DNA of 60,584 bases from positions 1 to 60,584 of the forward strand of contig JAVHLY010000017.1 of assembly GCA_031081585.1 (NCBI GenBank), in the 5' to 3' direction. The stretch comes from Armatimonadota bacterium (lineage in GTDB: Bacteria; Sysuimicrobiota; Sysuimicrobiia; Sysuimicrobiales; Humicultoraceae). Shown here piece by piece: positions 41,821-44,946 of this stretch (position 1 is its first letter; each line of letters starts with the position of its first letter). The translations under genes and the position numbers were made by a program. The notes under the pieces were generated by a model that ran no database searches, had not been told where the DNA came from, and was given only the letters and a program-made list of their open reading frames with translations.

Positions 41821-41893
41821 CGCAGCCGACGAGGATCCCACCGTCCCCCTGCAATAGAACGGGCCCGTCGGTGCGTCTCTTAGTAGGGACGCG

Positions 41894-42388
41894 ATGAGGG
41901 TGGAACCGGTGAGTCGGCCTGCTGCCGTCGAGCGCGACTTCGAAGCGTTCGTCCTCCCCCATCTCGGCTACCTGTACGGCCTGGCGGTCAGGCTGCTCGG
42001 CCAGCGCGAGGGGGCCGAGGACCTCGTCCAGGACGCGCTGCTGCGGGCCTTCCGCGGCTTCCCCCGGCTGCGTCACCACGAGCGGGGCCGGCTGTGGCTC
42101 ACCCGCATCACCACCCGGGCCTACTACGACCGGTTGCACTTGGACTTCCTCGACCTCTTCGACAGCGAGAAGGTCATCGCCGTGCTGGCCGCGCTCCCGC
42201 CCGGGTACCGCACCGCCCTGATCCTGGCGTACGTGTACGGCTTCAAGGCCCGCGAGGTGGCCGAGAGCATGCGCGTCCCCCTGGGCACCGTGCTGTCCAT
42301 GCTCTCGAGGGGCCGCCGGCGGCTGGAACGCGAGCTCTGGCAGTTCGCCACCACCAACGGACTGCTGCACCGGGAGGCTCGGGGATGA
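41894..42388 (+). CDS. ECF-type RNA polymerase sigma factor
   Basis: 164 residues. Region 2: FVLPHLGYLYGLAVRLLGQREGAEDLVQDALLRAFRGF, with the -10 recognition helix. Region 4: LAALPPGYRTALILAYVYGFKAREVAESMRVPLGTVLSMLSRGRRRLERELW, a helix-turn-helix for the -35. No region 3 or long extension. It heads an operon with a zinc-finger anti-sigma factor, a methyltransferase and two Cys-rich membrane-associated proteins, so it likely answers a thiol, metal or oxidant stress. Confidence 0.92.
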   Translation: MRVEPVSRPAAVERDFEAFVLPHLGYLYGLAVRLLGQREGAEDLVQDALLRAFRGFPRLRHHERGRLWLTRITTRAYYDRLHLDFLDLFDSEKVIAVLAALPPGYRTALILAYVYGFKAREVAESMRVPLGTVLSMLSRGRRRLERELWQFATTNGLLHREARG

Positions 42389-42410
42389 TCACGCACCGGG
42401 ACGGTCGGAC

Positions 42411-42647
42411 ATGATCACGTGTCGCGAAGCGGTGGCCCGCCTGTGGGCGTACCTAGACCGCCATCTCGGGCGGGTGGAGGAGGCGGAGCTGGAGGAGCAC
42501 CTGGGGCTGTGCCTCCACTGCTGCGGCGAGCTGCGCTTCGCCCAACACCTGCGCGAGCGTCTGCGTGCCTCCGGAGACTCGGCGGTGGACGAGGCGACGC
42601 GCCAGCGGCTGGAAGCCTTCGTCAGGGGCATCGGGGAGGTTGAGTAG
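42411..42647 (+). CDS. Zinc-finger (ZAS) anti-sigma factor
   Basis: 78 residues. ITCREAVARLWAYLDRHLGRVEEAELEEHLGLCLHCCGELRF has the zf-HC2 pattern, with an upstream Cys4 and the His-x3-Cys-x2-Cys zinc set (HLGLCLHC). Soluble ZAS proteins hold the ECF factor until cysteine oxidation or metal displacement. It lies between the sigma factor and the methyltransferase, 3' end abutting the latter's ATG. Confidence 0.88.
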   Translation: MITCREAVARLWAYLDRHLGRVEEAELEEHLGLCLHCCGELRFAQHLRERLRASGDSAVDEATRQRLEAFVRGIGEVE

Positions 42648-43481
42648 ATGGCGGATCCGCACCGTCACCTCGGCGCAGTGGAGTCGGGCGACCTGCTGGG
42701 CCAGGACGCCATCAAGGCGTCGGTCCGTGCCGCCTACCGGGAGATCATCGGCCAGGAGACGGGAGCGGCCGCCGCCCTCTACGATCCGGAGCAGCTGGCG
42801 GCGCTCCCCGCCGGCGCCGTCGCCCAGGCGCTGGGGGTCGGCAACCCGATCCGCCACGCCGACCTCCGGCCGGGCGAGGTGGTGGTGGACCTGGGCTGTG
42901 GCGGGGGGATCGACACGATCCTGGCGGCCCGGGCTGTGGGGCCCCAGGGGCGGGCCATCGGGCTCGACATCCTCCCGGAGATGCTCGAGGCGGCGGCGCG
43001 CCACGCCCAGGCGGCGGGCGCGACGAACGTGGAGTGGGTCCAGGGGGAGCTCGAGGCCATCCCCCTGCCCGACGGCGTGGCGGATGTGGCCATCGCCAAC
43101 GGCACCGTGAACCTCTCGCCGCGCAAGTCGCGGGTCTTCGCCGAGGTCTTCCGGATCCTGCGCCCGGGCGGGCGCTTCGTGGCCGCCGACATCGTGGTGG
43201 ACGAGGACCTGCCGCCGGAGATCCGGACTCACCCGGCCGCCTGGGCGGGGTGAATCTCGGGAGCGCTGGCGGAGGGGACCTTCGCCGCCAAACTGCGCAA
43301 GGCCGGCTTCGAGGCGGTCGAGCGGGTGGAGGAGCGGCCCTTCGGGCCGGAGCAGTGGGGCGCCTACCCGCTGCTCACTCCGGACCTGCTAGACCTGGTG
43401 CGACGGCTCATCCCGCCGGAGCGACAGGCGACGGTGACCCGCTCGGTGACCTTCCGGGCGCGGAAGCCCGCCGCTCCCTGA
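42648..43481 (+). CDS. ArsM-like SAM methyltransferase with in-frame TGA (candidate selenocysteine 202)
   Basis: Conventional translation stops at the TGA 43251-43253 after 201 residues; read through, the frame gives 277 residues and ends 33 nt before the next gene. Rossmann motifs: VVVDLGCGGGIDTIL (79-92), GRAIGLDILPEML, NLSPRKSRVFAEVFRILRPGG. The TGA sits in HPAAWAG-*-ISGALAEGTFAAKL, exactly where ArsM-type enzymes have a Cys before the I-x-G-A-L motif (the third arsenic-binding Cys). The other two ArsM cysteines read Val64 and Gly152, so arsenite is not certain as substrate. ATG 42648 has GGGGAGG upstream. A nonsense mutation or base error is the alternative. Confidence 0.75.
43268..43286 (+). 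promoter_or_regulatory. SECIS-like hairpin just downstream of the in-frame TGA
   Basis: GGCGGAGG pairs with CCTTCGCC (8 bp including one G-U) around the loop GGA. The loop starts 23 nt after the TGA and its first two bases are G, as in the known bacterial SECIS consensus (short stem, G in the first two loop positions, roughly 16-37 nt from UGA). In GC-rich DNA such a stem can occur by chance, so it supports but does not prove selenocysteine insertion. Confidence 0.5.
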
Positions 43482-43514
43482 CCGCCACCATCATCACCGG
43501 GAGGTGAGGGAGAC

Positions 43515-44117
43515 ATGGGATACGCCATCGAGGGCAAGTTGCTGGAAGCCTGCTCGTGCGCAGCCATCTGCCCCTGCTGGGTCGGCCGCGACCCCGACGG
43601 GGGCCAGTGCGACGGGCTCATCGCCTACCACTACGACCGGGGGGAGATCGACGGGGTGGACGTCTCCGGCCTCACCCTGGCCCTGGCGGTCCACATCCCC
43701 GGCAACGTCCTCCAGGGCGGGTGGAAGGTCGTGGCCTACGTCGACCGGCGGGCCACGCCGCGGCAGAAGGAGGCGATCCTGGCAGCCCACACCGGCCGGC
43801 TCGGTGGGCCGCTGGCCGACCTGGCGCCGCTCATCGGCGAGGTGCTGGGCGTGCAGGACGTGCCCATCGACTTCCACATGGCCGAGGGCCGGGGGACGGT
43901 CCGCGTGGGCGACGAGATCAGCGGGGAGATGGAGCCCCTGACCGACCTGCAGGGGCGGCCGACGACGCTGGTGGACAGCGTCTTCAGCACGATCCCGGGC
44001 TCGCCGGCGTTTGTGGGCACGGCGCCCTCGCTGCGGGCGACGATCCCCGCCCACGGGATCGCCTGGGCCTTCGAAGGCCGGAACGCCGTCCTGGGCTCGT
44101 TCCGCTTCGCCGCCTGA
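43515..44117 (+). CDS. DUF1326 protein
   Basis: 200 residues with GGGAGGTGAGGGAG before the ATG. The N-terminus YAIEGKLLEACSCAAICPCWVGRDPDGGQC carries cysteines 13, 15, 19, 21 and 32, the DUF1326 hallmark and a likely metal-binding patch. The rest is beta-rich with repeated Val/Gly strands and no membrane segment. DUF1326 and DUF2182 genes are nearly always neighbours; their joint role is unknown but the cysteines suggest metal handling. Confidence 0.88.
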   Translation: MGYAIEGKLLEACSCAAICPCWVGRDPDGGQCDGLIAYHYDRGEIDGVDVSGLTLALAVHIPGNVLQGGWKVVAYVDRRATPRQKEAILAAHTGRLGGPLADLAPLIGEVLGVQDVPIDFHMAEGRGTVRVGDEISGEMEPLTDLQGRPTTLVDSVFSTIPGSPAFVGTAPSLRATIPAHGIAWAFEGRNAVLGSFRFAA

Positions 44118-44163
44118 GGCGCCCGTGCGCACCGGGCCGCTGGGCGACGGGTCCGCACCGTCT

Positions 44164-44946
44164 ATGATCGACGCGCTGCGCACGTCCGACGACCGCCGCT
44201 GGTACACTCTGGCGGTAGCCGCGGTGGTCCTCTTCGCCTGGCTGACCCTGGCGGCCTGGGGGCGGTCCCCCTACGCGGTCTTCCTGGGCCACGGCGACGC
44301 CGGGGAGGTGTTCCCTCCGCCAGCGGGATCCTCCCCGGCGCTCCGCCTCGGCCTCTTCGTCGGCGGGTGGGTGCTCATGACGGTGGCGATGATGCTCCCC
44401 GCCAGCCTGCCGCTCCTCACCCTCTTCCGGCGGATGGTGCACCACCGCCGCCGTCGCGGGGGGCTGCTCGTCGCCCTGAGTGCGGGGTACCTAGGCGTGT
44501 GGGGCCTCTTCGGCCTGGGGGCCTACACCGGCGACCGGGTGGTCCACGTCGTCGTCGACCGCGCGGGCGCCGGGGCGGCGGCGGCCGCGCTGCTCCTCCC
44601 CACGGTCCTGCTGGCCGCCGGGCTCTACCAGTTCACCGGCTTGAAGGACCGCTGCCTGCAGGCCTGCCGGTCCCCCTACCTGTTCGTAGCCGAACGGTGG
44701 CGCGGCCGGCGGCCCGCGCTCGAGGCCTTCCGGCTGGGGGTGGACCACGGGCTCTTCTGCGTGGGGTGTTGCTGGACGCTGATGCTCCTGATGTTCGCCG
44801 TGGGGGTGGGGCACCTGACCTGGATGCTGGTGCTGGGCGCGGTCATGGGCACCGAACGCGCCGCGCCCTGGGGACGGGCCCTCACCCGTCCCGTGGGCGT
44901 GCTGCTGGTGCTCTGGGCCCTGGGCCGCCTGGTGCGCGGGGCGTAG
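44164..44946 (+). CDS. DUF2182 predicted metal-binding integral membrane protein
   Basis: 260 residues from the ATG at 44164; a GTG at 44125 with GAGG nearby is an alternative start. Six or so membrane helices. Family features are GWVLMTVAMMLPASLPLL with paired Met, YQFTGLKDRCLQACRSP with two Cys, and DHGLFCVGCCWTLMLLMFAVG with three Cys. Met and Cys residues lie inside or next to helices, as in metal-binding membrane proteins. It ends the ECF sigma operon and converges on the HD-domain gene 15 nt away. Confidence 0.9.
   Translation: MIDALRTSDDRRWYTLAVAAVVLFAWLTLAAWGRSPYAVFLGHGDAGEVFPPPAGSSPALRLGLFVGGWVLMTVAMMLPASLPLLTLFRRMVHHRRRRGGLLVALSAGYLGVWGLFGLGAYTGDRVVHVVVDRAGAGAAAAALLLPTVLLAAGLYQFTGLKDRCLQACRSPYLFVAERWRGRRPALEAFRLGVDHGLFCVGCCWTLMLLMFAVGVGHLTWMLVLGAVMGTERAAPWGRALTRPVGVLLVLWALGRLVRGA

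Follow-up and report, generated by a model that had tools for sequence, protein, structure and literature searches.

Do five closely spaced genes in the genome of an Armatimonadota bacterium form a single stress operon, and on what would its central enzyme act? The question arises in a window of 60,584 nucleotides (the whole stretch analysed; assembly GCA_031081585.1, contig JAVHLY010000017.1) from a member of a little-studied, mostly uncultured group. Its forward strand encodes, in order, an extracytoplasmic function (ECF) sigma factor (41894-42388), a zinc anti-sigma factor (ZAS) of the CHCC type (42411-42647), an ArsM-like S-adenosylmethionine (SAM) methyltransferase predicted to contain selenocysteine (Sec) (42648-43481), a DUF1326 protein (43515-44117) and a DUF2182/PpoB2-family membrane protein (44164-44946, with GTG 44125 as a possible start). 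The original prediction, made from the sequence alone, described five same-strand, closely spaced genes, and this description is exact over 41894-44946, with intergenic gaps of 22, 0, 33 and 46 nt. It also treated the five as one set, which our analysis does not support: the locus consists of two modules, of which the DUF1326-DUF2182 pair is independent. The reading we favour, and consider reasonably probable, is an RsrA-like thiol-redox stress circuit that would induce the Sec methyltransferase together with thiol- or metal-handling accessories.

The conserved unit, judged by gene order, is the ECF/ZAS/methyltransferase trio, and it spans two phyla. Named relatives such as HRbin32 and RBG_19FT_COMBO_69_19 suggest that the bacterium probably belongs to the phylum Sysuimicrobiota/CSP1-3. 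In a sample of 43 genomes of the order, close homologues of the methyltransferase occur in nine. Eight of these have the three genes in the same order (G000, the window genome; G001, G004, G014, G020, G021, G032 and G033, which is HRbin32), and the remaining one, G027, holds the locus in fragmentary form. This arrangement, with a cysteine (Cys) enzyme, recurs in a Saccharothrix sp. metagenome-assembled genome, Jiangella asiatica and G263, the only three of 394 genomes of the actinobacterial class sampled that hold a close methyltransferase homologue. In a profile search the ECF clade (at least 354 bits) was confined to the nine genomes carrying this methyltransferase clade, a count that includes the window copy with its internal deletion and a contig-edge fragment in G027; the next ECF scored 154. 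The methyltransferase is accordingly no chance guest in its neighbourhood, given a trio found in two phyla and a promoter motif common within the order.

The other cluster members vary. AhpD-like, OsmC and cupin genes are found in most clusters (AhpD-like genes within the cluster in G001, G004, G020 and G032), and DUF1326-DUF2182 in the window, G004 and G021. A conserved five-gene operon was considered and rejected, as the trio occurs without the DUF pair and vice versa; the two lie side by side in three of nine genomes. The AhpD-like proteins near the methyltransferase (L040:6784-7368, L105, L108, L109) retain one Cys (STYC) of the CxxC motif. Downstream of the actinobacterial trio lie genes for a small membrane-like protein and for another methyltransferase, ArsM-like but diverged (L130:6850-8188, L214:5925-7151).

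The methyltransferase frame reads through a TGA at 43251-43253, predicted to encode Sec202. This codon aligns with the C174 position of ArsM, where TGA stands in 8/9 genomes of the clade and TGC (Cys) in HRbin32; the three actinobacterial homologues also have Cys there, and the frame downstream of the TGA is conserved among homologues. The window genome encodes a tRNA-Sec (78.7 bits) beside selB (TIGR00475, 364 bits) and selA (TIGR00474, 561 bits). With the same codon kept as TGA, Cys homologues and the Sec machinery all present, the candidate Sec methyltransferase of the original prediction stands, and on these comparative grounds the TGA probably specifies selenocysteine. That it is instead a true stop, leaving a truncated enzyme or a pseudogene, is scarcely credible: an identical-codon TGA is also found in the sister clade described below, again with the frame conserved after it. 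The one observation in favour of a stop is that the folding energy of the downstream hairpin does not exceed that of synonymous shuffles.

Every TGA-bearing genome of the ECF-linked clade has a strong tRNA-Sec, and Cys-bearing HRbin32 a weak match only. The match reaches just 53-55 bits in HRbin32 and in two members of its genus, G024 and G030; since similar weak matches turn up in G014 and G027 as second hits in addition to genuine tRNA-Sec genes (77-81 bits), HRbin32, G024 and G030 are probably without tRNA-Sec. In the methyltransferase tree, the Cys enzyme of HRbin32 pairs with one that contains Sec (84/92), which suggests a recent Sec-to-Cys change. This natural Cys methyltransferase lies at L107:1657-2481.

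Approximately 15 nt past the TGA, a stem of CUGGCGGAG/CUUCG(U/C)CAG is kept in all Sec members of the clade with readable sequence; in the window it occupies 43265-43288 of the forward strand (CUGGCGGAG...CUUCGCC). The synonymous codon identity of the hairpin region ranks 13/269, in the top 5% of windows, but its folding energy against synonymous shuffles is not significant for most members. We therefore grade the hairpin as a likely candidate for a bacterial selenocysteine insertion sequence (SECIS). An Rfam scan of the hairpin region returned a chance sub-threshold match only. In the sister clade (L110-L114), several members have a perfect 8-bp hairpin, GCGCTTGC-GGA-GCAAGCGC, about 11 nt past the TGA.

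The nearest family of the enzyme is the arsenite methyltransferase family NF008823 of NCBIfam, against which it scores 233 bits, under the cut-off of 263. Compared with ArsR-linked ArsM from within the order, the whole clade has other residues in place of the N-terminal CC, the GCGNP Cys and the SNC Cys, and only the C174 position is retained, as Sec or Cys. Because three of the four conserved cysteine positions are lost, canonical arsenite methylation is doubtful, and by its residues the window enzyme is not a typical arsenite METHYLTRANSFERASE. The ECF-linked methyltransferases are monophyletic (100/97), and their sister group is a second Sec clade (99/95) that lacks the ECF and shows the same cysteine losses.

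These residues bear directly on an arsenic-resistance operon, in which arsenite would displace the anti-sigma zinc and the Sec enzyme would methylate arsenite to methylarsenicals. Arsenite attacks zinc thiolates, and the nearest family and the alignment of Sec with ArsM C174 both agree with such a function. Moreover, the Sec-containing arsenite methyltransferase is an experimentally verified selenoprotein family (PMC13188914), and a single-cysteine ArsM of Thermus is active on arsenite (PMC8649762), so that an arsenic substrate is conceivable. The neighbourhood points elsewhere, however: neither ArsR nor an arsenic pump adjoins the trio, a second ArsM-like gene of the window genome (G000:C15) lies close to an ArsR-like regulator, and in relatives the trio is paired with OsmC, AhpD-like proteins and cupins. 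With the cysteine loss throughout the clade and the missing ArsR, a strict arsenic operon is disfavoured, and we judge this explanation unlikely. The OsmC, AhpD-like and cupin partners in relatives indicate oxidant or electrophile stress.

The regulatory pair is consistent with this. The anti-sigma factor (PF13490 zf-HC2, 27.2 bits) has the ligands C4, H30, C34 and C37, all invariant in eight aligned sequences, so that the His-x3-Cys-x2-Cys motif noticed earlier (H30, C34, C37) is real. In RsrA the first-position Cys is required for oxidative release, and by the C-H-C-C criterion of that study (PMC4960319) the window protein, with its N-terminal Cys, has this ligand set. Of the circuit first proposed, the thiol theme and the control of the methyltransferase by the ECF/ZAS pair survive, supported by the conserved trio and the promoter motif; release of the sigma factor by a metal(loid) is not supported, and the CHCC motif is of the type that in RsrA responds to disulfide stress. 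The sigma factor has sigma2 and sigma4 domains (PF04542, 46.9 bits; PF08281, 51.1 bits; both above cut-off) and lacks sigma3. Its start may perhaps be GTG 41909, not ATG 41894, since the promoter-to-start spacing then equals that of relatives.

A predicted ECF-type promoter, GCAATA-N17-CGTCT, lies at 41851-41878 of the forward strand. The dyad GCAAT-N18-CGTCT is present upstream of 6/8 homologous ECF genes, compared with at most 2/8 in 60 shuffled sets; identity among the spacers is just 32%. From this conserved motif we infer an autoregulated ECF promoter. The window genome (2.88 Mb) has a single copy of GCAATA-N17-CGTCT, and likewise of the shortened GCAATA-N17-CGTC, in each case at this locus; neither form revealed a larger regulon there. 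In relatives the motif or a variant was also seen before OsmC, DUF1326 and cupin genes: a CGTCC variant stands upstream of OsmC in HRbin32 and G021, a second site in G032 precedes a secreted cupin, and the only exact site of HRbin32 lies 82 nt before DUF1326. Motif scores are 16-23 at these sites and no higher than 12.9 before any DUF1326 from genomes that lack this ECF. As the ECF-methyltransferase genes and DUF1326 of HRbin32 are on different contigs, its site connects DUF1326 with the ECF without recourse to gene neighbourhood. In other genomes most exact matches look like background (a handful in each, chiefly GCAATC/G), and any one site taken alone is thus of limited weight.

How, then, does the DUF1326-DUF2182 pair belong to this locus? 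DUF1326 (PF07040, 181.7 bits) has the invariant pattern CxC...CPC...C, and the five N-terminal cysteines described before are genuine: C13, C15, C19, C21 and C32 are invariant in aligned homologues. Its AlphaFold2 model (pLDDT 92) shows an acetoacetate-decarboxylase-like fold; the nine best rows of the VIA-align comparison are all of this kind (Z 10.1-11.1 over 154-162 residues), and the overall fold is predicted to resemble the acetoacetate decarboxylase superfamily. No Lys at all is invariant among 32 DUF1326 homologues, so the catalytic Lys of that superfamily is not conserved, and a sequence search against the PDB gave one weak match (0.0013). DUF2182 (PF09948, 203.4 bits) has the invariant residues M72, M76, M77, C164, C168, C199, C202 and C203. 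A Foldseek search for structural relatives gave no match with an E of 0.001 or lower, a result that excludes nothing. The two families were said to have no assigned role. This applies to DUF1326, which is uncharacterised, but not to DUF2182, for which PF09948 denotes the PpoB2 copper chaperone, a role established in one bacterium: PpoB2 of Marinomonas hands copper to tyrosinase (PMC2855505). In the literature searched, PpoB2 is present, and DUF1326 and DUF2182 are absent by those names.

This chaperone speaks for a copper circuit, in which copper, or copper-driven thiol oxidation, would free the sigma factor, and DUF1326 and the PpoB2-like protein would move or buffer copper. The invariant Cys and Met of both proteins agree with it, as does the G021 cluster, where a P1B-type ATPase (HMA domain) and a Cys-rich MerR regulator lie upstream of OsmC-DUF1326-DUF2182-ECF (L121:5736-8488). 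Such a circuit is decidedly unlikely, as neither DUF gene was seen beside the trio in 6/9 loci of the order and 3/3 actinobacterial loci (some contigs are short), and the pair itself mostly occurs without the ECF.

That independence raises the opposite explanation, that the pair sits behind the ECF operon by chance and is functionally unrelated to it. The two genes are adjacent on the same strand in 29 of the DUF1326 matches retrieved, and most of these loci lack a neighbouring ECF of this clade; the pair is also found on annotated Paraburkholderia and Streptomyces plasmids, and it accompanies the trio in the three genomes named above. Yet in the window it follows on the same strand after a gap of 33 nt, the association recurs in G004 and G021, and the sole exact ECF promoter of HRbin32 precedes an unlinked DUF1326. 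We consider a chance arrangement very unlikely. At some loci (L056, L052, L068, L069), two DUF1326 genes are neighbours.

In the thiol-redox circuit that we favour, the CHCC zinc anti-sigma factor would hold the ECF under reducing conditions. Oxidation, or attack of a soft electrophile or metal at the zinc-bound thiols, would expel zinc and allow a C4-C34/C37 disulfide to form, freeing the ECF to drive transcription of the operon that encodes it from GCAATA-N17-CGTCT. The output common to all loci would be a SAM methyltransferase with a single active-site Sec (or Cys), which may capture and methylate a soft electrophilic toxicant, e.g., a trivalent arsenical or similar metalloid, or may serve thiol or selenol methylation. 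Further outputs would vary: relatives would produce OsmC, AhpD-like proteins and cupins, and the window genome DUF1326 and the PpoB2-like membrane protein, which would handle copper or another thiophilic metal. Gene order, conservation, the Sec codon and its machinery, the loss of ArsM cysteines, the promoter motif and the CHCC residues are observed; from these we infer the redox switch, promoter activity, co-transcription, the enzyme substrate and the metal.

Several observations weigh against this circuit. In the alignment, the window ECF lacks, near 42130, the 33-35 residues that link sigma2 and sigma4 in 7/7 homologues. The near-repeat TACT(A/C)CGACCG, found at both edges of the linker region in relatives such as G004, fits a slippage deletion or, with lower probability, an assembly error; either the window ECF could be impaired or this part could be misassembled. 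Among the methyltransferases of the order, that of the window sits on the longest branch, and it is missing a Cys (ECEQYP) present in the others. With the loss of the linker and a divergent methyltransferase, the circuit may be altered in this genome. The best NCBIfam match of the anti-sigma factor, RsrA (TIGR03988), reaches 37.8 bits against a cut-off of 62.5. The promoter of G014 has a shorter spacer, HRbin32 has no dyad directly before its ECF (its site precedes OsmC instead), and none was seen upstream of the actinobacterial ECF genes. In G015, which has a solo TGA-bearing enzyme, no tRNA-Sec was seen in a genome that is 72% complete. The ordinary folding energy of the SECIS candidate belongs to the same side.

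Each component belongs to a known family. As to the combination, we found no description of an anti-sigma/ECF pair of the redox type that specifically serves a selenoprotein methyltransferase in the literature searched, outside which lies the selenoprotein-neighbourhood paper of Haft and Tolstoy (2025). More tentatively, and with the balance of probability somewhat against so broad a statement, we suggest that the enzymes may form a new redox-induced, non-arsenite methyltransferase class with one Sec or Cys, served in two phyla by an RsrA-like ECF circuit of their own, with hardly more than one target, that recruited DUF1326/DUF2182 as a thiophilic-metal module. If the thiol-redox reading is right, it would provide a testable handle on ‘arsenite methyltransferases’ in which the arsenic site is largely lost, together with a promoter motif ready for use, naturally occurring Sec and Cys versions of one operon, and a way to connect the uncharacterised DUF1326 family with a regulator.

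Comparison with known systems places the locus between several precedents. With ArsM (NF008823), including its Sec form, the enzyme has in common the SAM-methyltransferase core and the chalcogen that occupies position C174, but it lacks the N-terminal, GCGNP and SNC cysteines and any ArsR link, scores 233 against 263 bits, and falls in a separate clade of the tree. The ArsM/AhpD fusion selenoprotein (NF041537) likewise combines an ArsM-like Sec domain with an AhpD-type domain, which in relatives of the window occur in one cluster; there they are separate genes, the AhpD-like protein has one Cys of the CxxC, and the window operon has no AhpD-like gene. TtArsM of Thermus also relies on a single conserved active-site chalcogen, although there the residue is C77, accompanied by two histidines, and does not correspond to C174, and the enzyme is under an ArsR/SmtB-type repressor. 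The PpoB1-PpoB2 tyrosinase operon of Marinomonas shares the DUF2182 protein of the PF09948 copper-chaperone family, whereas the partner here is DUF1326 and no tyrosinase is among the five genes (none was sought elsewhere in the genome). As in SigR-RsrA of Streptomyces, an ECF is followed by a small zinc anti-sigma factor with C-H-C-C ligands. The window anti-sigma factor falls under the RsrA cut-off, however, and where the SigR regulon comprises roughly 100 genes, the regulon here is apparently tiny, with one exact promoter in the genome and a Sec methyltransferase as its output.

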